From Pseudomonas oryzae (GTDB lineage: Bacteria; Pseudomonadota; Gammaproteobacteria; Pseudomonadales; Pseudomonadaceae): a stretch of DNA of 64,000 bases. Shown here in pieces: positions 32,406 to 63,981 of the stretch. The position numbers and the translations under genes are program-made. The DNA is taken from positions 1 through 64,000 of the forward strand of contig NZ_LT629751.1 in assembly GCF_900104805.1 (NCBI RefSeq), given 5' to 3'. The number at the start of each line of letters is the position of its first letter. Position 1 is the first letter of the stretch. The notes under the pieces were generated by a model that was given only the letters and a program-made list of their open reading frames with translations, was not told the origin of the DNA and searched no databases.

Positions 32406-34582
<2,177 letters not shown>

Positions 34583-34618
34583 ATTTCCCCTTAGCAGATC
34601 TCGCAACAGGAGTAGTAC

Positions 34619-34960
34619 ATGAGCTTTCTGATCTCCGCCGCCCATGCCGCCGATGCCGCCGCTCCGGCCGGTGCCCCGCCGGGAGGCGAGTACGTGCAGT
34701 TCCTCATGCTGGCCGGCTTCGTGGTCATCTTCTACCTGCTGATCTGGCGTCCGCAGGCCAAGCGCGCCAAGGAGCACAAGAACCTGATCGGCGGCCTGCA
34801 GAAGGGTGACGAGGTGGTGACCTCCGGCGGCATCGCCGGCAAGGTGGTCAAGGTCGCCGACGACTTCGTGGTGCTCGAGGTCTCCGACACCGTCGAGCTG
34901 AAGATCCAGAAGATGGCCATCGCCGCCGCCCTGCCCAAGGGCACCCTGAAGGCCATCTGA
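34619..34960 (+). CDS. yajC: Sec translocon accessory protein YajC
   Basis: A 113-residue protein with one helix about 23-42 (FLMLAGFVVIFYLLIWRPQ) and a basic and acidic cytoplasmic tail (KGDEVVTSGGIAGKV). YajC associates with SecDF and SecYEG. CAGGAG precedes the start. The gene lies between tgt and secD, the usual order. Confidence 0.95.
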   Translation: MSFLISAAHAADAAAPAGAPPGGEYVQFLMLAGFVVIFYLLIWRPQAKRAKEHKNLIGGLQKGDEVVTSGGIAGKVVKVADDFVVLEVSDTVELKIQKMAIAAALPKGTLKAI

Positions 34961-34980
34961 GTTTTCTTCCTTCCTTACTC

Positions 34981-35003
34981 ACGGGGCACGCAAGGTGCCC
35001 CGT
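34981..35003 (+). other. Hairpin between yajC and secD
   Basis: ACGGGGCAC pairs with GTGCCCCGT around GCAAG, a 9-bp stem. It has no T run, so it is more likely an intra-operon structure or processing site than a full terminator. Confidence 0.6.
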
Positions 35004-35022
35004 GTTGCAAACGGGCTGTGTC

Positions 35023-36885
35023 ATGCTCAACAAGTATCCCCTGTGGAAATATCTGCTGATCCTGGTGGTGCTCGGAGTCGGCTTCATCTATTCCGCACCC
35101 AACCTGTATCCCGACGATCCGGCTGTCCAGCTGACCGGTGCCAGCACCGCGCTGAAGGTCGGCCAGGCCGAGCTCGATCGCGCCGAGCAGGCGCTCAAGG
35201 ACGCCGGCATCGCGGTCAAGGCCGGCAGCCTCGGTGACAAGGGTGCGCTGCTGCGCCTGACCCGCCAGGAAGACCAGCTGCCGGCCAAGGACGTGGTGCG
35301 CCGCGCCCTCGGTGACGACTACGTGGTCGCGCTGAACCTGGCGCAGACCACGCCGGAATGGCTGCGCCAGCTGGGCGCCAGCCCGATGAAGCTGGGTCTC
35401 GATCTTTCCGGCGGCGTGCACTTCCTCCTCGAGGTCGACATGGACAAGGCCGTGACGGCGCGTCTGAATGTCTACGAGGGTGAGGTGAAGAGCCTGCTGC
35501 GCAAGGAGCGCGTACGCTATCGCTCGCTGCCCGTGCAGGACGGCGCCATTCAGCTCGGCTTCACCGACGAGGCCGCCCTGGACGAGGCCGAGAGCCTGAT
35601 CCGCAAGACCTACAACGAATTCGACCTGCAGCGTGGCGAGCGCAACGGCCTGCAGGTGTTGCGTCTGGCGCTGAGCCAGACCAAGCTCGCGGAAATCCGC
35701 GAGTACTCGATCAAGCAGAACCTCACCACCGTGCGCAACCGCGTCAACGAGCTGGGCGTCGCCGAGCCGCTGGTGCAGCGCCAGGGCGCCAGCCGCATCG
35801 TGGTCGAGCTGCCCGGCGTGCAGGACACCGCCGAGGCCAAGCGCATCCTCGGCAAGACCGCCAACCTGGAGTTCCGCCTGGCCGCCGACGCCGATGCCTC
35901 GCGCGCCAGCACCGAGACCTTCGAGTTCCGCGAGGAAGGGCGTCTGCCGGTGGAGCTGGAACGCAGCGTGATCATCACCGGTGACCAGGTCACCGACGCG
36001 CAGGCCAGCTTCGACGAGAACGGTCGCCCGCAGGTCAACATCCGCCTCGACGGCCGTGGTGGCGACCTGATGAACCGCGCCACCCGCAGCAACGTCGGCC
36101 GCAGCATGGCGGTGGTGTTCATCGAGCAGAAGCCGGTGACCCGCTACGTCAAGCAGACCGTCGATGGCGTGGAGAAGGAAGTCGCGGTTTCCGCGTTCAA
36201 GGAAGAGAAGAAGATCATCAGCCTGGCGACCATCCAGTCGCCGCTGGGCAACAGCTTCCGCATCACCGGTCTCGACGGTCCGGGCGAGTCCTCGGAACTG
36301 GCCCTGCTGCTGCGTGCCGGTGGTCTGGCCGCGCCGATGTACTTCGCCGAGGAGCGCACCATCGGCCCGAGCCTGGGTGCCGAGAACATCGAGCTGGGCA
36401 TCCAGGCGGCGCTGTGGGGCTTCCTGTTCGTCGCCCTGTTCATCGTCGCCATCTACCGGTTCTTCGGCATCCTGGCCACCGTTGCCCTGGGCTTCAACAT
36501 GGTGGTGCTGGTGGCGCTGATGTCGCTGCTCGGCGCCACCCTGACCCTGCCCGGTATCGCCGGCATCGTGCTGACCATGGGCATGGCGGTGGACGCCAAC
36601 GTGCTGATCTTCTCCCGTATCCGCGAGGAGATCGCCAACGGCATGTCGATCCAGCGCGCCATCCACGAAGGCTTCGACCGCGCCTTCAGCGCGATCCTCG
36701 ACGGCAACCTGACCACCCTGCTGGTCGGCGCCATCCTGTTCGCCATGGGTACCGGCCCGGTCAAGGGCTTCGCCGTGACCATGTCGCTGGGCATCATCAC
36801 CTCGATGTTCACCGCGATCGTGGTGACCCGCGGCATGGTCAACCTGATGTTCGGTGGCCGCAACATCAAGAAGTTGTGGATCTGA
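35023..36885 (+). CDS. secD: Protein translocase subunit SecD
   Basis: A 620-residue inner-membrane protein with six helices. Helix 1 at the N-terminus is followed by a long periplasmic domain (about 30-440) that ends before five clustered C-terminal helices (DANVLIFSRIREE, GTGPVKGFAVTMSLGI). SecDF uses the proton gradient to pull proteins through after SecA. ATG 35023 starts MLNKYPLWKY, as in pseudomonads. The ribosome-binding site is weak. secF begins 12 bp after its stop. Confidence 0.97.
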   Translation: MLNKYPLWKYLLILVVLGVGFIYSAPNLYPDDPAVQLTGASTALKVGQAELDRAEQALKDAGIAVKAGSLGDKGALLRLTRQEDQLPAKDVVRRALGDDYVVALNLAQTTPEWLRQLGASPMKLGLDLSGGVHFLLEVDMDKAVTARLNVYEGEVKSLLRKERVRYRSLPVQDGAIQLGFTDEAALDEAESLIRKTYNEFDLQRGERNGLQVLRLALSQTKLAEIREYSIKQNLTTVRNRVNELGVAEPLVQRQGASRIVVELPGVQDTAEAKRILGKTANLEFRLAADADASRASTETFEFREEGRLPVELERSVIITGDQVTDAQASFDENGRPQVNIRLDGRGGDLMNRATRSNVGRSMAVVFIEQKPVTRYVKQTVDGVEKEVAVSAFKEEKKIISLATIQSPLGNSFRITGLDGPGESSELALLLRAGGLAAPMYFAEERTIGPSLGAENIELGIQAALWGFLFVALFIVAIYRFFGILATVALGFNMVVLVALMSLLGATLTLPGIAGIVLTMGMAVDANVLIFSRIREEIANGMSIQRAIHEGFDRAFSAILDGNLTTLLVGAILFAMGTGPVKGFAVTMSLGIITSMFTAIVVTRGMVNLMFGGRNIKKLWI

Positions 36886-36897
36886 GGACTGCGCACG

Positions 36898-37809
36898 ATG
36901 AAACGCGTGATCAATTTCATGGGCATCCGGCACGTCGCCTTCGCGCTGACCGTGCTGCTGACCCTGGGCTCGCTGGCCAGTCTGGCGATCAAGGGGCTGA
37001 ACTTCGGCCTCGACTTTACCGGCGGTACGCTGATCGAGCTGTCCTACGAGCAGCCGGCGCAGCTCGACAAGGTGCGCGGCCAGCTGCAGCAGGCCGGCTA
37101 CGCGGAGGCGGTGGTGCAGAGCTTCGGCGCCAGCACCGACGTGCTGGTGCGCCTGCAGGGCGACGACCCGCAGCTGGGCAACCAGCTGGCCGAGGCGCTG
37201 CGCAAGGTCAGCGCCGACACGCCGTTCACCCTCAAGCGCGTCGAGTTCGTCGGTCCGCAGGTGGGTGAGGAACTGCGCGACCAGGGTGGCCTGGGCATGC
37301 TGCTGGCGCTCGGCGGCATCCTGGTCTACGTGGCCTTCCGCTTCCAGTGGAAGTTCGGCTTCGGCGCCATCGTCTCGCTGATCCACGACGTGATCGTCAC
37401 CCTCGGCGTGTTCAGCCTGTTCCAGATTCCCTTCGATCTGACCGTGCTGGCGGCGGTGCTGGCGATCATCGGCTACTCGCTGAACGACACCATCGTGGTG
37501 TTCGACCGTATCCGCGAGAACTTCCGCGTGCTGCGCAAGACCGAGCTGATCGACAACATCAACATCTCCACCACGCAGACCCTGCTGCGCACCATGGCCA
37601 CCTCGCTGTCGACCCTGCTGGCCATCGTCGCGCTGATGGTGTTCGGCGGCGAGAGCCTGTGGGGCTTCTCCCTGGCGCTGTTCATCGGCGTCTCGGCGGG
37701 CACCTACTCATCGGTGTACATCGCCAGCATCCTGCTGATCTGGCTGAAGCTGACCCGCGACGACCTGATTCCGCCGGTGGTCGAGGACGAGGTGGACGAG
37801 CGGCCGTAG
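36898..37809 (+). CDS. secF: Protein translocase subunit SecF
   Basis: A 303-residue protein with six helices and a periplasmic domain about 40-140 after the first helix. Conserved: LNFGLDFTGGTLIELSY, FQWKFGFGAIVSLIHDVIV and GYSLNDTIVVFDRIREN. It pairs with SecD. GAGGA precedes the start. A terminator follows 22 bp after the stop. Confidence 0.97.
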   Translation: MKRVINFMGIRHVAFALTVLLTLGSLASLAIKGLNFGLDFTGGTLIELSYEQPAQLDKVRGQLQQAGYAEAVVQSFGASTDVLVRLQGDDPQLGNQLAEALRKVSADTPFTLKRVEFVGPQVGEELRDQGGLGMLLALGGILVYVAFRFQWKFGFGAIVSLIHDVIVTLGVFSLFQIPFDLTVLAAVLAIIGYSLNDTIVVFDRIRENFRVLRKTELIDNINISTTQTLLRTMATSLSTLLAIVALMVFGGESLWGFSLALFIGVSAGTYSSVYIASILLIWLKLTRDDLIPPVVEDEVDERP

Positions 37810-37831
37810 TAAGGCGCCTTGTCCGGGTGAA

Positions 37832-37855
37832 GAAAGCGCCTGCGGGCGCTTTTTT
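37832..37855 (+). terminator. Intrinsic terminator of secDF
   Basis: AAAGCGCC and GGCGCTTT pair around TGCG, followed by TTTTT. It is a clear plus-strand terminator. Confidence 0.9.
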
Positions 37856-38015
37856 CATGTCCGGCGGAATGCGCGTATGAAAAAACCGGCGCGCGAGCCA
37901 GCAGCAGTCTTGTAGAGGGGCAGCGGCGTACCCCACCAAGGATGCCACCAGGCTTCCGCCTTGCCGGCCTTGCGGCTGGTCGGTGGGTTACGGCCTGCGG
38001 GGTGCGAGCAATAAA

Positions 38016-38039
38016 AAACCCGGCGCGCGGGCCGGGTTT
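38016..38039 (-). terminator. Intrinsic terminator of suhB
   Basis: AAACCCGGC and GCCGGGTTT pair around a GC-rich loop; on the minus strand a run of T follows. It lies about 20 bp downstream of the suhB stop. Confidence 0.88.
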
Positions 38040-38059
38040 CTTGTGCCGTAGTCGGCCGA

Positions 38060-38875
38060 TCAGCGCTTGAGTGCCGGCGGCAGGTGCGGCTGGATGGCGG
38101 TGAGCACCGCCTTGAAGCACTTGGTGTTGCCCGCGACCACGTGGCCCTTTTCGAGGAATTCGTGGCCGCCGGTGAAGTCGCTGACCAGGCCGCCGGCTTC
38201 CTGCACCAGCAGGGCGCCCGCAGCCATGTCCCACTCGGACAGGCCGAACTCCCAGAAGGCATCGAAGCGGCCGGCGGCGACGTAGGCCAGGTCCAGGCTG
38301 GCGGCGCCGGCGCGGCGGAGGCCGGCGGTCTGGCCAACCAGGCTGCGGAACATGCCCAAGTAGCTGTCCAGGTGGTCGAGCTGGCTGTCGCGGAACGGGA
38401 AGCCGGTGCCGAGCAGGGCGCCTTCCAGGCCCTTGCGGTTGCTGACGCGCAGGCGCTTGCCGTTGAGGGCGGCGCCGCGGCCGCGGCTGGCGGTGAACTC
38501 TTCCTGGCGGATCGGATCGAGGACCACGGCGTGCTCGACGCGGCCGCGGTACTTGCAGGCGATGCTCACGGCGAAGTGCGGCAGGCCGTGGATGAAGTTG
38601 GTGGTGCCGTCCAGCGGATCGATGACCCACAGGTAGTCGGCACCGTCGCCCTGGCCCGGCTGCAGACCGCTTTCCTCGGCGAGGATGCCGTGGTTGGGGT
38701 AGGCTTTGCGCAGCACCTGAATGATGGTCTGTTCGGCGGCGCGGTCGACCTCGGTCACGTAGTCCTTGGCATCCTTCTCGTTGACCGAGAGCACATCCAG
38801 GCGTTCGAGCGAGCGGAAGATGAGTTCGCCGGCACTGCGGGCCGCGCGCAGCGCGATATTCAGCATGGGCTGCAT
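38060..38875 (-). CDS. suhB: Inositol-1-monophosphatase SuhB
   Basis: A 271-residue Mg-dependent phosphatase. Metal-binding residues are E67/E68 (AEES), D86, D89, G90 and T91 (DPLDGTTNF), and D212 (WDMAAG). In E. coli SuhB also works in ribosomal RNA transcription antitermination; in Pseudomonas it affects virulence regulation. Start ATG 38875 gives the expected 271-residue length. It is divergent from trmJ. Confidence 0.96.
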   Translation of the reverse strand: MQPMLNIALRAARSAGELIFRSLERLDVLSVNEKDAKDYVTEVDRAAEQTIIQVLRKAYPNHGILAEESGLQPGQGDGADYLWVIDPLDGTTNFIHGLPHFAVSIACKYRGRVEHAVVLDPIRQEEFTASRGRGAALNGKRLRVSNRKGLEGALLGTGFPFRDSQLDHLDSYLGMFRSLVGQTAGLRRAGAASLDLAYVAAGRFDAFWEFGLSEWDMAAGALLVQEAGGLVSDFTGGHEFLEKGHVVAGNTKCFKAVLTAIQPHLPPALKR

Positions 38876-39007
38876 GGAAGGTTCACCTGGGCTGTTAAAG
38901 AAAGCCGGACATTCTAACAGAAAAGCGCAGGCCATGAAGGGCGCGTGGCGCCGGCGGCGGTGCTTGGGTAAGATTCGTGTCCTTTTTTCCGGGGTGGGAG
39001 AGCGAGC

Positions 39008-39781
39008 GTGCTCGACAGGATTCGCGTGGTGCTGGTCAATACCAGTCATCCGGGCAACATCGGTGGTACGGCGCGGGCCATGAAGAACATGGGCCTGTCG
39101 CGCCTGGTGCTGGTGCAGCCCGAGGAGTTCCCCAGCGGCGAAGCCAACGCACGGGCCTCGGGGGCTACCGATATCCTCGAGGCGGCCGTGGTGGTCGACA
39201 CGCTGGAGGAGGCGCTGGCCGGCTGCAGCCTGGTGCTCGGCACCAGTGCGCGCGACCGGCGCATCCCCTGGCCGCTGCTCGATCCGCGCGAGTGCGCGCA
39301 GAAGAGCCTGGAGCATGTCGAGCTGGGCGGCGAGGTGGCGCTGGTGTTCGGTCGCGAATACGCCGGGCTGACCAACGAGGAGCTGCAGCGCTGCCAGTAT
39401 CACGTGCACATCCCGGCCAATCCCGAGTTCAGCTCGCTGAACCTGGCCACCGCCGTGCAGGTGCTGGTCTACGAGGTGCGCATGGCCTGGCTGGCGCTGC
39501 AGGGGCAGCCGACCAAGGTGGAGAAGCTGGAGACCACCGCCATGCTCGATGCGGTGCCGGTCACCGCCGACGAGCTGGAGCTGTTCTATCGGCACCTGGA
39601 GGAGACCCTGGTGCAGATCGACTTCCTCGATCCGGAAAAGCCGCGTCACCTGATGGCCCGTCTGCGTCGCCTGTACGGGCGCTGCGGGATCAGCAAGCTG
39701 GAAATGAACATCCTGCGCGGTATCCTCACAGAAACCCAGAAGGCAGCCCGTGGCGAGCTGCACAAGCGGAGAGATGACTGA
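39008..39781 (+). CDS. trmJ: tRNA (cytidine/uridine-32-2'-O)-methyltransferase TrmJ
   Basis: A 257-residue SPOUT methyltransferase that methylates position 32 in the anticodon loop. Conserved: [48 protein letters not shown] and [16 protein letters not shown]. It starts at GTG 39008 with GGGAG upstream. The stop overlaps the cysE start in TGATG. Confidence 0.95.
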
Positions 39782-40590
39782 TGTTCGAGCGCATGCGAGA
39801 AGACATCCAGAGCGTATTCCATCGCGATCCGGCGGCGCGCAACACCCTCGAGGTGCTGGTCTGCTACCCGGGGCTGCACGCGGTGTGGCTGCATCGCGTG
39901 GCGCACTGGCTGTGGTGCGCCGAGTGGAAGCTGCTGGCGCGCCTGGTGTCGCACATCAGCCGCTGGCTGACTGGCATCGAGATCCATCCGGGGGCGAAGA
40001 TCGGCCGGCGCTTCTTCATCGACCACGGCATGGGTATCGTCATAGGCGAGACCGCCGAGATCGGCAATGACGTCACCCTCTACCACGGCGTGACCCTGGG
40101 CGGCACCAGCTGGAACAAGGGCAAGCGCCACCCGACCCTGGAGGACGGCGTGATCGTCGGCGCCGGGGCGAAGATCCTCGGTCCGTTCACCGTCGGCGCC
40201 GGCGCCAAGATCGGCTCCAACGCGGTGGTCACCCGCCCGGTGCCGGCCGGCGCCACCGCGGTGGGTATCCCGGGGCGGATCATCAGCAAGGGCGACGACG
40301 AGCAGGAGGCTCGGCGCAAGGCGATGGCCGAGAAGATCGGCTTCGATGCCTACGGCGTCAGCCAGGACATGCCCGATCCGGTGGCGCAGGCCATCGGCCA
40401 GCTGCTCGACCACCTGCAGGCGGTGGACGATCGCCTCGAGGGCATGTGCAAGGCGCTGACCGCATTGGGTAGCGACTACTGCGCGAAGAAGCTGCCGGAG
40501 CTGCGCAACGAGGACTTCGCCGGCGTCAAGCCGCAGGGTGGCGAGGTGGCCGGCGAAGCCGTGCCGGCGGCGCCGCGCGCTCAGGATTGA
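39781..40590 (+). CDS. cysE: Serine O-acetyltransferase
   Basis: A 269-residue enzyme that makes O-acetylserine from serine and acetyl-CoA, the committed step of cysteine synthesis. Conserved [38 protein letters not shown] and left-handed beta-helix repeats are seen at about 65-185. The last 75 residues are a longer, helical extension than the shortest CysE forms. Start ATG 39781 is coupled to trmJ by a 1-base overlap. It feeds cysteine to the ISC operon that follows. Confidence 0.95.
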
Positions 40591-40652
40591 GGTGCGCGCG
40601 CGGGGGAACTGCTATAAGATCCTCCGCGCGCTTTCGTCGCACCGCCTTTATC

Positions 40653-40675
40653 CGAGCGAAACGCTCGGTCTTTTA
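40653..40675 (+). terminator. Intrinsic terminator of cysE
   Basis: CCGAGCG and CGCTCGG pair around AAA, followed by TCTTTT. It separates trmJ-cysE from the iscR promoter. Confidence 0.85.
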
Positions 40676-40706
40676 GTTGACTGCTTTACTCGGAAAATTG
40701 CATACT
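40672..40706 (+). promoter_or_regulatory. iscR promoter with a type-1-like IscR site
   Basis: TTGACT at 40678-40683 is a good -35, with the -10 near 40701-40706 after about 17 bp. The stretch AGTTGACT-GCTTTACTCGG resembles the type 1 sequence bound by holo-IscR, which represses its own operon when clusters are plentiful. The site overlaps the promoter. Confidence 0.7.
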
Positions 40707-40740
40707 TCGTGCACTTTCCGAACCATCGCGGTACAAGCCC

Positions 40741-41241
40741 ATGCGACTGACCACCAAAGGCCGTTACGCCGTGACTGCCATGCTCGATCTCGCGCTGCAC
40801 GCGCAGAACGGGCCGGTGTCCCTCGCCGACATCTCCGAGCGGCAGGGCATTTCCCTGTCCTATCTCGAACAGCTGTTCGCCAAGCTGCGCCGTGGCAGCC
40901 TGGTCAGCAGCGTGCGCGGCCCCGGCGGCGGCTACCAGCTGTCGCGCGACATGGCCAGCATCGACGTGGCCCAGGTGATCGACGCGGTCAACGAATCGGT
41001 CGACGCCACCCGCTGCCAGGGCAACGGCGGCTGCCACGAAGGCGATGTCTGCCTGACCCACCACCTGTGGTGCGGCCTCAGCGACCGTATCCATGAATTC
41101 CTCAGCGGCATCAGCCTCGCCGACCTGGTCCAGCGCCAGGAAGTGCAGAACGTTGCCCTGCGCCAGGACCAGCGTTGCCAGCAGAATGGCAAGGCGCTGT
41201 CGCCCCAGCTTGAAAAGATCGAAGCGTCCGCCATCGATTGA
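40741..41241 (+). CDS. iscR: Iron-sulfur cluster regulator IscR
   Basis: A 166-residue Rrf2-family regulator. The winged helix spans about 1-75 ([20 protein letters not shown]); the [2Fe-2S] ligands are C92, C98, C104 and H107 at the same positions as in E. coli. With its cluster it represses the isc operon; without the cluster it activates alternative systems. It is the first gene of isc, 33 bp before iscS. Confidence 0.97.
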
Positions 41242-41274
41242 TGCCGCGAGCGCCAGCCTGACAGGAGAGACCTG

Positions 41275-42489
41275 ATGAAATTGCCGATCTACCTGGATTA
41301 TTCCGCGAGCACGCCGGCCGACCCGCGCGTGGCGCAGAAGATGTGCGAGTGCCTGACCATGGATGGCAACTTCGGCAACCCGGCCTCGCGTTCGCACGTG
41401 TTCGGCTGGAAGGCCGAGGAGGCGGTGGAGAACGCCCGCCGCCAGGTCGCCGAGCTGGTCAATGCCGACCCGCGCGAGATCGTCTGGACCTCCGGCGCCA
41501 CCGAGTCCGACAACCTGGCGATCAAGGGCGTCGCGCACTTCTACAGCGGCAAGGGCAAGCACATCGTCACCTCCAAGATCGAGCACAAGGCGGTGCTGGA
41601 CACCACCCGCCAGCTCGAGCGCGAAGGTTTCGAGGTCACCTACCTGGAGCCGGGCGAAGACGGCATCATCACTCCGGCGATGGTCGAGGCGGCGCTGCGC
41701 GAGGACACCATCCTCGTCTCGATCATGCACGTCAACAACGAGATCGGCACCGTCAACGACATCGCCGCCATCGGCGAGCTGACCCGCTCCCGCGGCATCC
41801 TGTTCCACGTCGACGCCGCGCAGTCGACCGGCAAGGTGGAGATCGACCTGGAGACCATGAAGGTCGACCTGATGTCGTTCTCCGCGCACAAGACCTACGG
41901 TCCCAAGGGCATCGGCGCTCTCTACGTGCGCCGCAAGCCGCGCGTGCGCCTCGAGGCGCAGATGCACGGCGGCGGCCACGAGCGCGGCATGCGCTCGGGC
42001 ACCCTGGCAACCCACCAGATCGTCGGCATGGGCGAGGCGTTCCGCATCGCCAAGGAAGAGATGGCCGCCGAGAACGTGCGCATCAAGGCCCTGGCCGATC
42101 GTTTCCAGGCCCACCTGGAGGGCATGGAAGAGGTCTACCTGAACGGCAGCGCCAGCGCGCGCGTGCCGCACAACCTCAACCTCAGCTTCAACTACGTCGA
42201 GGGCGAGTCGCTGATCATGGCGCTCAAGGATCTCGCCGTGTCGTCCGGCTCGGCCTGCACCTCGGCGTCCCTGGAGCCGTCCTACGTGCTGCGCGCCCTG
42301 GGCCGCAACGACGAGCTGGCGCACAGCTCGATCCGCTTCACCTTCGGCCGCTTCACCAGCGAGGAAGAGGTCGACTACGCCGCCGCCAAGGTGCGCGAGG
42401 CGGTGACCAAGCTGCGCGAGCTGTCGCCGCTGTGGGACATGTTCAAAGAAGGCGTCGACCTGTCCAAGGTCGAGTGGCAGGCGCACTGA
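41275..42489 (+). CDS. iscS: Cysteine desulfurase IscS
   Basis: A 404-residue PLP enzyme that removes sulfur from cysteine. K206 ([10 protein letters not shown]) binds PLP; C328 ([20 protein letters not shown]) carries the persulfide. It donates sulfur to IscU and to other sulfur routes such as tRNA thiolation. AGGAGA precedes the start. It is followed by iscU 28 bp later. Confidence 0.98.
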
Positions 42490-42517
42490 CGCCCAAGATT
42501 CAGCGAGGAAAACCGCC

Positions 42518-42904
42518 ATGGCATACAGTGACAAGGTCATCGACCACTACGAAAACCCGCGCAACGTCGGCAAGATGGACGCCGAAGATCCCAACGTCGG
42601 CACCGGCATGGTTGGCGCGCCGGCCTGCGGCGACGTCATGCGCCTGCAGATCAAGGTCAACGACGACGGCGTGATCGAAGACGCCAAGTTCAAGACCTAC
42701 GGCTGCGGTTCGGCGATCGCCTCCAGCTCCCTGGCCACCGAGTGGATGAAGGGCAAGACCCTGGACGAGGCCGAGTCGATCAAGAACACCGAGCTGGCCG
42801 AGGAACTGGCCCTGCCGCCGGTGAAGATCCACTGCTCGGTGCTCGCCGAGGACGCCATCAAGGCGGCCGTGCGCGACTACAAGCAGAAGAAAGGTTTGCT
42901 CTGA
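42518..42904 (+). CDS. iscU: Iron-sulfur scaffold IscU
   Basis: A 128-residue scaffold on which [2Fe-2S] clusters form. Ligands and key residues: C37, D39, C63, H105 and C106. LPPVK at 99-103 is the HscA recognition motif. GAGGAAA precedes the start. Confidence 0.98.
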
Positions 42905-42929
42905 GGAGCACGGGAACAGAGGAGGCGCT

Positions 42930-43253
42930 ATGGCCATCAGCATGACCGAAGCCGCGGCACGCCATGTGCAGCGCTCGCTGGAAGGACGGGGCAAGGGCGA
43001 GGGCATCCGCCTCGGGGTGCGTACCACCGGCTGCTCCGGCCTGGCCTACGTGCTGGAGTTCGTCGATGAACAGGCGCCCGAGGACATGGTGTTCGAGAGC
43101 TTCGGCGTCAAGGTGTTCATCGACCCGAAGAGCCTGTCCTATCTCGACGGCACCGAACTCGACTTCACCCGCGAGGGGCTGAACGAAGGCTTCAAGTTCA
43201 ACAACCCCAACGTGCGCAGCGAGTGCGGCTGCGGCGAAAGCTTCAACGTCTGA
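42930..43253 (+). CDS. iscA: Iron-sulfur assembly protein IscA
   Basis: A 107-residue A-type carrier. Cluster or iron ligands are C35, C99 and C101 (SECGCGESF). It passes clusters on toward [4Fe-4S] targets. A strong GAGGAGG precedes the start, and the stop is 8 bp before hscB. Confidence 0.97.
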
Positions 43254-43261
43254 GGCCGCCG

Positions 43262-43780
43262 GTGAGTACCTGCCATTTCGCCCTGTTCGATCTGCAGCCG
43301 GCGTTCACCATCGATCTCGACCAGCTCGCGGTGCGCTACCGCGAGCTGGCCCGGGAAACCCACCCCGACCGCTTCGCCGATGCCTCGCCGCGCGAGCAGC
43401 GCCAGGCGCTGGAGCGCGCCGCCCAGCTCAACGACGCCTACCAGACCCTGAAGAGTCCCAGTCGTCGCGCCTACTACCTGCTGGGTCTGCGTGGCGAGCA
43501 GCCGCCGCTGGAAGCGACGGTGCAGGACCCCGAATTCCTCATGCAGCAGATGATGCTGCGCGAAGAGCTCGAGGAGCTGCAGGACAGCGCCGACCTGGAC
43601 GGTGTCGCTGTCTTCAAACGCCGGCTCAAGTCGGCCCAGGCTGCGCTGGAGCAGTCCTTCACCGTCTGCTGGGACGTTCCCGCCGAGCGCGCGCAGGCCG
43701 AGCGCCTGATGCGTCGCATGCAGTTCCTCGACAAGCTGGCCCTTGAGGTGCGTGAGCTGGAAGAGCGCCTCGACGATTAA
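43262..43780 (+). CDS. hscB: Co-chaperone HscB
   Basis: A 172-residue J-domain protein that delivers IscU to HscA. The J domain has HPD at 34-36 (THPDRFAD); the C-terminal helical bundle spans about 85-172. It starts at GTG 43262, giving MSTCHF; the open frame reaches further upstream into iscA and is not used. GAGG lies upstream. A hairpin follows before hscA. Confidence 0.94.
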
Positions 43781-59240: not shown

Positions 59241-59268
59241 TCTTTCCCTGCCTGATGAGGAGCGCACG

Positions 59269-62200
59269 ATGGACATGAACCGTCGGCAATTCTTCAAGGT
59301 CTGCGGTGTCGGCCTGGGAGCCTCGAGCCTGGCGGCTCTGGGCATGGCGCCACCGCCGGCCTACGCCGAGACGATCCGCCACTTCAAGCTGGCCAGCACC
59401 CGCGAGACCCGCAACACCTGCCCGTACTGCTCGGTCGGCTGTGGCCTGATCATGTACAGCCGTGGTGATGGCGGCAAGAACGTGGTCCAGGAAATCATCC
59501 ACATCGAGGGCGACGCCGACCACCCGGTCAACCGCGGCACCCTGTGCCCGAAGGGCGCCGGCCTGCTCGACTTCGTGCACAGCCCCAACCGCCTCAGATA
59601 CCCCGAGGTGCGCGAAGCCGGCAGCAACGCGTGGAAGCGCATCGGCTGGGACGAGGCGCTGGAGCGCATCGCCCGGCTGATGAAGGATGACCGCGACGCC
59701 AACTTCGTCGAGCGGAATGCGAGCGGGCAGACGGTCAACCGCTGGCTGACCACCGGCTTCCTCGCCGCCTCGGCGTCCTCCAACGAAGCGGGCTACATCA
59801 CCCACAAGGTGGTGCGTTCGCTGGGCATGCTGGCGTTCGACAACCAGGCGCGTGTCTGACACGGCCCGACGGTGGCAGGTCTTGCCCCGACGTTTGGCCG
59901 TGGCGCCATGACCAATCACTGGTCCGACATCAAGAATGCGGACCTGGTTTTGATCATGGGCGGCAACGCCGCCGAAGCCCACCCCTGCGGCTTCAAGTGG
60001 GTGACCGAAGCGAAGGCGCACAACAAGGCGCGCCTGATCGTGGTCGACCCGCGCTTCAACCGTTCCGCCTCGGTGGCCGACCTGTACGCGCCGATCCGCA
60101 CCGGCACGGACATCGCCTTCCTCGGCGGGCTGATCAACTACCTGCTGGAGAACGACAGGATCCAGCACGAATACGTGCGCAACTACACCGACCTGGCGTT
60201 CGTGGTGAAGGAGGGCTTCGCCTTCGCGGACGGCCTGTTCAACGGCTACGACGCGGACAGGCGCGGCTACCCGGACAAGTCCGCCTGGGGCTACGAGATC
60301 GGCGCGGACGGCTACGCGATGGTCGACCCGACCCTCAGCCATCCGCGCTGCGTCTACAACCTGCTCAGGCAGCACTACAGCCGCTACACCCCGGAGCTGG
60401 TCAGCAGCATCTGCGGCACGCCGCAGGAAACCATGCTCAAGGTCTGGGAGGCCATCGCCGAAACCTCGGCGCCCGGCAAGGCGATGACCATCATGTACGC
60501 CCTCGGCTGGACCCAGCACAGCGTGGGCTCGCAGATGATCCGTACCGGTGCCATGGTGCAGTTGCTGCTCGGCAACATCGGCATGCCCGGCGGCGGCATG
60601 AACGCCCTGCGCGGCCACTCCAACATCCAGGGCCTCACCGACCTGGGCCTGCTGTCGAACCTGCTGCCCGGCTACCTGACCCTGGCCGGCGACGCCGAGC
60701 AGGACTACGCCGGCTACATCGCCAAACGCACGCAGAAACCGCTGCGCCCGGGGCAGCTGTCCTACTGGCAGAACTACGAGAAGTTCCACGTCAGCCTGAT
60801 GAAGGCCTGGTTCGGCAAGGCCGCCACGGCGGAGAACGACTGGGCCTACCACTGGCTGCCCAAGCTGGACGTGCCCGGCTACGACGTGCTCAAGGTGTTC
60901 GACATGATGTTCCAGGGGCAGATCAACGGCTACTTCTGCCAGGGCTTCAACCCGATCGCCGCCTTCCCCAACAAGGCCAAGGTCGGCGCGGCGCTGGCCA
61001 GGCTCAAGTACCTGGTGATCATGGACCCGCTGGTCACCGACACCTCGGAGTTCTGGCGCAACGCCGGCGAGTTCAACGACGTCGACACGGCGAGCATCCA
61101 GACCACGGTGTTCCGCCTGCCGACCACCTGTTTCGCCGAGGAGGACGGCTCCCTGGTCAACAGCGGACGCTGGCTGCAGTGGCACTGGAAGGCCGCCGAA
61201 CCGCCGGGCGAGGCGCGCACCGACATCGCCATCATGGCCGGGCTGTTCCACCGTCTGCGCGAGCTGTACCAGAAGGAGGGTGGCGCCTTCGCCGCGCCGA
61301 TCCTTAATCTCGACTGGTCCTACTTGCGCCCGGATGAGCCGGGGCCGGACGAACTGGCCCGCGAGTTCAGCGGCAAGGCGCTGGCCGACGTCTCGGATCC
61401 TGCCAGCGGCGCCGTGCTGGCCAGGGCCGGCGAACAGCTGGCCGGTTTCGCCCAACTGCGCGCCGACGGCACGACCGCCAGCGGCTGCTGGATCTTCAGC
61501 GGCAGCTGGACGCAGGCCGGCAACCAGATGGCGCGGCGCGACAACGCCGACCCCTACGGCATGGGCCAGACCCTCGGCTGGGCCTGGGCCTGGCCGGCCA
61601 ACCGGCGCATCCTCTACAACCGCGCCTCGGCCGATCCTTCGGGCCGGCCGTGGGATCCGGTGAAGAAGCGCCTGGTGTGGTGGAACGGCAAGAGCTGGGG
61701 TGGCACCGACGTGCCCGACTTCAAGGCCGACTCGGCACCGGAAGACGGCATGAACCCGTTCATCATGAACCCCGAAGGGGTGGCGCGCTTCTTCGCCGTC
61801 GACCGGATGGCCGAAGGGCCGTTCCCCGAGCACTACGAGCCGTTCGAGACGCCGATCGGGCGCAACCCGCTGCATGGCAACGCCCAGGCGGTGAGCAATC
61901 CGGCGGCACGGGTGTTCAAGAACGACCTGGAGCTGTTCGGCAAGGCGGAGGAATTCCCCTACGCCGCCACCACCTACCGGCTCACCGAGCACTTCCACTA
62001 CTGGACCAAGCACTGCCGGCTCGCCGCCATCACCCAGCCCGAGCAGTTCGTCGAGATCGGCGAAACGCTGGCGAAGGAGCTGGGCATCAAGGCCGGCGAC
62101 CGCGTCAGGGTGTCCTCCAACCGCGGCTACATCAAGGCGGTGGCGGTGGTGACCAAGCGCCTGCGGCCGCTGACGGTGGACGGCAAGATCGTGCACCACG

Positions 62201-62340
62201 TCGGCATCCCGATCCACTGGGGCTTCACCGGGGTGGCCAAGAACGGCTTCATCACCAACACCCTGACGCCCTTCGTCGGCGACGGCAACACGCAGACGCC
62301 GGAGTTCAAGTCGTTCCTCGTGAACGTGGAGAAGGTGTGA
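59269..62340 (+). CDS. fdnG: Formate dehydrogenase alpha subunit, selenocysteine at residue 197
   Basis: A 1023-residue Mo- or W-bis-MGD enzyme oxidising formate to CO2 on the periplasmic side. The Tat signal has RR at 5-6 (RRQFFK). The [4Fe-4S] ligands are C51, C54, C58 and C93. The frame is interrupted by TGA 59857-59859, which codes selenocysteine 197 (QARV-U-HGPTV), with H198 beside it, as in E. coli FdnG/FdoG. The frame then continues unbroken. Without readthrough the product would be a 196-residue fragment. Length agrees with the family (about 1015). GAGGAG at 59257-59262. fdnH begins 1 bp after the stop. Confidence 0.96.
59857..59902 (+). promoter_or_regulatory. Selenocysteine codon and SECIS-like element in fdnG
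   Basis: The TGA is followed by a lower stem CACGGCC (59860-59866) with GGCCGTG (59896-59902) and an upper stem GG-GGCA (59871-59877) with TGCC-CC (59883-59888). T59873 is bulged, and the loop is GGTCT (59878-59882). This is the arrangement of the E. coli SelB-binding hairpin, which has a bulged U17 and G23-U24 in the loop. Confidence 0.92.
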
Positions 62341-62341
62341 C

Positions 62342-63268
62342 ATGGCCAGCCAAGACATCATCGCCCGTTCCGCCACCACCACGCCGATGCCGCAGGTTCG
62401 CCAGGTCGGCGAGGTGGCCAAGCTGATCGATACCTCCAAGTGCATCGGCTGCAAGGCCTGCCAGGTGGCCTGCTCGGAGTGGAACGAGCTGCGCGACCAG
62501 GTCGGCGGCAACGCCGGCACCTACGACAACCCCAACGACCTCAGCGCCGACTCCTGGACGTTGATGCGTTTCACCGAGTACGAGAACCCCGGAACCGGCA
62601 ACCTCGAATGGCTGATCCGCAAGGACGGCTGCATGCATTGCGCCGACCCCGGCTGCCTCAAGGCCTGTCCAAGCCCGGGAGCGATCGTCAAGTACGCCAA
62701 CGGCATCGTCGACTTCAACCAGGACAAGTGCATCGGCTGTGGCTACTGCATCACCGGCTGCCCGTTCGACATCCCGCGCATCTCGCAGAAGGACCACAAG
62801 GCCTACAAGTGCACCTTGTGTTCCGACCGCGTGGCCGTGGGCCTGGAGCCGGCCTGCGTGAAGACCTGCCCGACCGGCGCCATCGTGTTCGGCAGCAAGG
62901 AGGACATGCAGGTGCATGCCGCCGGGCGCATCGCCGACCTCAAGGAACGCGGCTTCGACCAGGCCGGGCTGTACGACCCGGACGGCGTCGGCGGCACCCA
63001 CGTGATGTACGTGCTGCACCACGCCGATCAGCCGTCGCTGTACGCGGGACTGCCCGATCAGCCGGTGATCAGCCCGCTGGTCAGCCTGTGGAAGGGCATC
63101 GCCAAGCCGCTGGCGCTGCTGGCCATGGGCGCCACCGTGCTGGCCGGTTTCTTCCACTACGTGCGGGTCGGGCCGAACAAGGTCGACGAGGAGGAGGACC
63201 CCGGCGAGCCGACGGTACATCAGGTCGATCCGTCGGTGCACGTGGTGGATCCGAACAAGCAGCCCTGA
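62342..63268 (+). CDS. fdnH: Formate dehydrogenase iron-sulfur beta subunit
   Basis: A 308-residue protein with four [4Fe-4S] clusters. Cysteine groups: 34/37/40/44, 97/100/105/109, 130/133/136/140 and 157/160/172/176. A C-terminal membrane helix spans about 255-273, with a short acidic tail. It passes electrons from FdnG to FdnI. It starts one base after the fdnG stop. Confidence 0.96.
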
Positions 63269-63363: not shown

Positions 63364-63981
63364 ATGAAACACGAGATCCAGCGCTACACCCCTTCGGAGC
63401 GGTCCAATCACTGGGCCGTGGCCATCCTGTTCGTCCTCGCCGGGCTGTCCGGGCTGGCGCTGTTCCATCCGGCACTGTTCTGGCTGTCCGGGCTGTTCGG
63501 CGGCGGGGTGTGGACGCGCATCCTGCACCCCTTCCTCGGCCTGGCGATGTTCGCGCTGTTCCTGATCATGGCGCTGCGCTTCGCCCACCATAACCGCCTG
63601 AACGCCAACGACCGCCAGTGGCTCGGCCAGATGGGCGATGTGCTCAACAACCGCGAGGACAAGCTGCCGGAAGTCGGCCGCTACAACGCCGGGCAGAAAC
63701 TGCTGTTCTGGGTGCTGGTGCTGTGCATGCTGGTGCTGCTGGCCAGCGGCATCGTCATCTGGCGGCAGTACTTCGGCCATGTGTTCGGCATCGAGCTGAT
63801 CCGCCTGGCCGCGCTGGCGCATGCCCTGGCGGCCTTCGTGCTGGTCACCAGCATCATCGTGCACGTCTACGCCGCCATCTGGGTCAAGGGTTCGGTGGGC
63901 GCCATGCTCACCGGCAAGGTCAGCCGCGCCTGGGCGCGCAAGCACCATCCGGGCTGGTTCAAGGAGATCGGCCGCAAGTAG
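63364..63981 (+). CDS. fdnI: Formate dehydrogenase cytochrome b556 gamma subunit
   Basis: A 205-residue membrane protein with four helices holding two b haems. H16, H55, H153 and H167 match the haem ligands of E. coli FdnI in spacing. It passes electrons to the quinone pool. A repeat-bearing gap of 95 bp separates it from fdnH. The first bases of a further REP-like repeat follow the stop. Confidence 0.95.
   Translation: MKHEIQRYTPSERSNHWAVAILFVLAGLSGLALFHPALFWLSGLFGGGVWTRILHPFLGLAMFALFLIMALRFAHHNRLNANDRQWLGQMGDVLNNREDKLPEVGRYNAGQKLLFWVLVLCMLVLLASGIVIWRQYFGHVFGIELIRLAALAHALAAFVLVTSIIVHVYAAIWVKGSVGAMLTGKVSRAWARKHHPGWFKEIGRK

Follow-up and report, generated by a model that had tools for sequence, protein, structure and literature searches.

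An fdnG-like formate dehydrogenase gene with an in-frame UGA very probably decoded as selenocysteine in Pseudomonas oryzae

The formate dehydrogenase locus and its interrupted frame

Near the end of the window (the whole stretch of DNA analyzed here, which is the first 64,000 nucleotides of the Pseudomonas oryzae contig NZ_LT629751.1) lies a gene for the alpha subunit of a formate dehydrogenase, and the gene order from this point is fdnG-fdnH-fdnI-fdhE-selA-selB-selC. The starts of selA, selB, and the selenocysteine (Sec) tRNA gene fall ∼1–5 kb beyond the window's end. The features of the locus, together with selD, are as follows:

59257..59262, + strand: probable ribosome-binding site (GAGGAG), 6 bases before the ATG, as read from the sequence
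59269..62340, + strand: fdnG-like gene, formate dehydrogenase-N/O alpha subunit, 1023 residues with Sec197 (matches to TIGR01553 and 1kqf_A)
59854..59912, + strand: SECIS hairpin (Rfam SECIS_3, RF01989), 84.7 bits (gathering score 63), model positions 1–59 of 59, spanning the TGA
59857..59859, + strand: UGA selenocysteine codon 197 (frame reading, alignment with 1kqf_A, conservation in relatives)
62342..63268, + strand: fdnH, iron-sulfur beta subunit, 308 amino acids (TIGR01582, 461.5 bits, cut-off 334.7)
63364..63981, + strand: fdnI, cytochrome b gamma subunit, 205 amino acids (TIGR01583, 200.6 bits, cut-off 115.85)
ending at 65153: fdhE (TIGR01562, 342.6 bits, over the cut-off)
65150–66556: selA (TIGR00474, 601.0 bits, over the cut-off)
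66553–68475: selB (TIGR00475, 470.4 bits, over the cut-off)
68516–68607: tRNA-Sec (selC), anticodon TCA
1991126–1992043 of the genome, apart from the fdnG block: selD (438.6 bits)

When positions 59269–62340 are translated with TGA as selenocysteine, the frame contains two TGA codons, at codon 197 and at codon 1024 (the terminal stop), and no other in-frame stop; the 827 codons originally counted after the first TGA are 826 sense codons, or 827 with the stop included. The original prediction placed this TGA inside a formate dehydrogenase, at the Sec site of FdnG/FdoG, and both a family model and a solved structure bear this out. The TIGR01553 model (FDH-N alpha) matches the whole frame with 1480.2 bits (cut-off 814.2), unbroken over residues 3–1022 (model positions 2–1009 of 1009), while the 196-residue stub and the 822-residue piece that follows it score 249.0 and 1197.3 bits when taken separately. 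Because the model matches across both halves in one stretch, the interruption by TGA is not due to chance. The best solved relative is Escherichia coli FdnG (1kqf_A; 1567.7 bits, residues 1–1022), in which an X, which we take to be selenocysteine, faces codon 197. The protein exceeds the curated cut-off over the whole alpha-subunit model, and the genes for its beta and gamma partners are next in line. At its N terminus, the motif NRRQFFK is presumably a twin-arginine-like leader (Tat motif).

Absence of all Sec machinery from the genome had been named as a result that would speak against Sec use, and a genome search for selA, selB, selC, and selD had been proposed; all four are present, with selA to selC in line with fdnG and selD elsewhere. 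Together with a UGA located where a known Sec family has its selenocysteine and a SECIS element that carries U17, G23, and U24, these genes place fdnG among predicted bacterial selenoprotein genes. The selD gene shares a 3.9-kb locus with mnmH, so this bacterium probably makes tRNA 2-selenouridine with its selenium as well. The genome also encodes what is probably another formate dehydrogenase alpha subunit (L117:100–3444; genome ∼1918561–1919661), which scores 930.9 bits against TIGR01591 (cut-off 666.25); its N-terminal half is NuoG-like and there is no stop within the match, and this enzyme is probably of the selenium-independent, NAD-linked type.

An internal TGA was also considered in homologs of the presumably SIMPL-like protein encoded next to selC, and this candidate was dropped. 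The alignments stop at query residue 252–253 with no stop inside, whereas two of three earlier matches ran to residue 255 and one to 261, so that the TGA counted in these relatives is most likely that gene's own stop.

The SECIS hairpin and conservation among relatives

Conservation was assessed in 80 named relatives, which are the best 80 by identity of at least 592 confirmed, so that the sample favors like sequences; the closest named relative among the matches listed is Pseudomonas oryzagri (92% protein identity). The alignment of codon 197 and the SECIS element comprises the window and the 80 named loci, and is separate from the loci of the genus (four of the seven short ones of which were reversed). 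At the Sec position, all 80 relatives have TGA. The first codon as extracted is ATG in 45 of the 80, with starts left uncurated.

The hairpin at 59854–59912 is the only SECIS_3 match in the 4.64-Mb genome at E ≤ 0.001 (150 of 2256 first-look candidates were scored), and among 14 control genomes a match occurs in E. coli alone. Folded by itself, the segment 59857–59905 forms a hairpin with a minimum free energy of −25.5 kcal/mol (z −2.34 relative to shuffles), and 7 of 200 shuffles are at least as stable. Counting the U of UGA as base 1, bases 17, 23, and 24 are U, G, and U. According to PMC8659212, U17 and G23 are the SelB-binding bases, mutation of which abolishes readthrough, and U24 is with them among the non-varying sites. 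All three are invariant across the 80 named relatives. SECIS base 22, which lies in codon 204 (59878–59880), is divided between A (41) and G (39) among these relatives, which makes residue 204 either Ser or Gly; the flanking codons are nearly unchanging.

Synonymous diversity among the 80 named loci and the window is 0.161 in codons 198–213, compared with 0.349 elsewhere, and none of 20,000 amino-acid-matched draws is as low (draw mean 0.394), a count that is not an exact probability because the sequences compared pairwise are related to one another. Furthermore, when 1008 segments of sixteen codons are ranked by synonymous diversity, the lowest seven all overlap the hairpin. Selection on the protein extends over both sides of the TGA: in five pairs drawn from the 80, dN/dS is 0.10–0.28 before it and 0.23–0.40 after it, higher after than before in every pair but still well below 1. 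A real stop with no conserved residues downstream, which had been named as a second ground against readthrough, is at odds with these values and with a family match that reaches residue 1022.

Among the 68 loci of at least 20 kb, fdnH, fdnI, and fdhE are nearby in all 68, selA in 64, selB in 66, and a tRNA-Sec called by ARAGORN in 61; over all 80 loci, including those on cut-off contigs, the counts are 80 (fdnH), 78 (fdnI), 75 (fdhE), 68 (selA), 69 (selB), and 64 (tRNA-Sec). Two of the long loci have no nearby selB, and four (L057, L059, L093, and L100) have no nearby selA, with SelA present elsewhere in the genome in each of the four. ARAGORN finds no tRNA-Sec at seven of the long loci, comprising the same four along with L033, L036, and L101.

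Within the genus, a SECIS_3 match over the cut-off, SelA, and SelB over the cut-off are each found in seven of eight genomes, the same seven each time, and SelD is found in all eight. The six other gene-bearing genomes were compared from longer stretches, apart from the 80-locus alignment. Their proteins are 92–99% identical, and all six have an in-frame stop at residue 197 and, by pattern match, the TGA-SECIS start; ARAGORN identifies a tRNA-Sec at five of these six loci and none at L126.

Readings of the in-frame UGA

Four lines of evidence favor decoding of the UGA as selenocysteine, as first proposed: the family match, the SECIS element, the Sec machinery genes, and the conservation of the TGA. 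We regard it as almost certain that fdnG encodes the Sec-containing catalytic subunit of an FdnGHI/FdoGHI-type formate dehydrogenase, an enzyme that is membrane-bound and faces the periplasm, with UGA197 decoded as selenocysteine; none of the observations speaks directly against this. Expectations for how Sec is inserted, which metal is bound, where the enzyme lies, how electrons flow, and whether it is active come from studied homologs. On this basis, SelD would supply selenophosphate, with which SelA would make Sec-tRNA(Sec) from the serylated selC product, and SelB would deliver the charged tRNA to the ribosome while holding the SECIS hairpin that immediately follows the UGA. In the folded protein, Sec197 would be expected to serve as a ligand of the active-site Mo (or W), the alpha subunit may be exported by the Tat pathway, and electrons would likely pass through FdnH and then FdnI to quinone.

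Among the alternatives, the one that survives best concerns the identity of the inserted residue. Near-cognate leakage at UGA is known from work in E. coli, and under selenium shortage a tRNA such as that for Trp could read the codon partly or mainly, giving some full-length protein that lacks Sec. This is improbable as an account of the locus, given that selA, selB, and selC are in line with the gene and that the bases contacted by SelB are invariant in 80 of 80 relatives.

The remaining two alternatives treat the TGA as a genuine stop, and both were rejected on the conservation of the TGA and the selection acting after it. A pseudogene, in which a nonsense mutation or a sequencing error splits the gene, would yield the two pieces that an ORF caller using translation table 11 returns, yet the same TGA recurs in every named relative and a stop falls at the same residue in all six other genus loci, purifying dN/dS values persist downstream in the five pairs, the frame holds no further stop, and a SECIS element and sel genes accompany it; we give this reading almost no credence. 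The other reading, in which the TGA is a programmed stop or separates two genes and the 822-residue piece is translated from the GTG at 59872, can be set aside just as firmly: this GTG is a possible start, but it is codon 202, lies within the SECIS hairpin where it is nearly fixed (GTG in 79 and GTA in 2 of 81 sequences), and falls in a region that the family model and the solved homolog both traverse unbroken.

The original observation is real and its reading, selenocysteine at codon 197, is supported; the case is of a textbook kind rather than novel. A predicted UGA-readthrough formate dehydrogenase of Pseudomonas putida KT2440 was already listed in 2005 (PMC1242214), and PMC5029168 names formate dehydrogenase alpha and SelD as the most widespread bacterial selenoproteins, with 822 organisms given for the former in its Table 3. 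Since such genes are widespread and the P. putida case is of long standing, the finding is correct but ordinary, and this fdnG is unremarkable within its family, which has the broadest distribution of any among bacterial selenoproteins.

Annotation, known counterparts, and the extent of the block

The original prediction held that an automatic caller would break this gene into two, namely a 196-residue stub and a second gene with a false start near 59872, and this warning is only half borne out. A plain ORF caller with translation table 11 reproduces both, giving 59269–59859 (196 amino acids) and 59872–62340 (822 amino acids, GTG start). The claim did not hold for two of the three relatives' records that were opened, in which a single CDS carries fdnG across the TGA, with a length of 3066 bases in P. 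putida (NZ_CP142112) and 3051 bases in E. coli (NZ_CP183084); the third, Burkholderia stagnalis NZ_CP156686, has 3 features in the entire record and none at this place. Each of the five E. coli DNA matches listed names fdnG alone under the match. For the plasmids, eight matches are listed from 34 records, with fdnG named in one, no feature in six, and one record without annotation; because the gene table of that collection is incomplete, the blank entries are uninformative either way. The warning of two genes applies to callers that are blind to recoding, and under the plain bacterial code the sole SECIS_3 gene of this genome is missed and two spurious genes appear in its place.

The closest structural counterpart, E. 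coli FdnG (PDB 1kqf/1kqg), of which FdoG is a close paralog, resembles the present protein in its near-equal length (a 1015-residue chain), its leader, its Sec position, and the beta and gamma genes that follow, and its genome likewise has a SECIS_3 match. It differs in gene order: at the single E. coli locus inspected, fdhD precedes the gene and fdoH/fdoI come after it, whereas here the operon runs straight on into fdhE, selA, selB, and selC. The proteins titled "Formate dehydrogenase, alpha subunit, selenocysteine-containing" (PDB 6sdr, 8cm4, and others), which we take to be of the Desulfovibrio type, share a Sec alpha subunit and the same superfamily, but their scores (∼881–889 bits) are far below the 1567.7 bits of FdnG.

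A copy with the same arrangement occurs in P. putida WBC-3, where fdnG (WP_143024310.1; 76.6% DNA identity) heads the order fdnG-fdxH-gamma-fdhE-selA-selB-tRNA-Sec. Unlike the P. oryzae genome, which is a single 4.64-Mb contig, this copy is carried by a 46-kb plasmid that was typed as conjugative (NZ_CP142112; L131), in which the complete block spans 34360–43657, with a Tn3-family transposase ∼1 kb away. The gene table of this plasmid, which is incomplete, lists no selD. The plasmid block represents a transferable selenoenzyme accompanied by the genes for its own decoding.

The one genome of the genus with no match to the enzyme (G001, 3.2 Mb) has no SECIS_3 match, no SelA, and no SelB above the cut-off, and retains selD; the enzyme protein used as a query gives zero matches in it and 11 in G000. 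Because the enzyme, SelA, and an above-cut-off SelB are missing there while selD is kept, and because the conjugative-typed P. putida plasmid carries the whole block, fdnGHI-fdhE-selA-selB-selC may be a self-contained cassette that is acquired and lost in one piece and depends only on a selD already present in the host, a proposal to which we assign roughly even chances. The genes found on either side of the block in P. oryzae are ∼100 kb apart in G001, and ∼30 and ∼25 kb apart in two genomes that have the block (G006 and G007, respectively).
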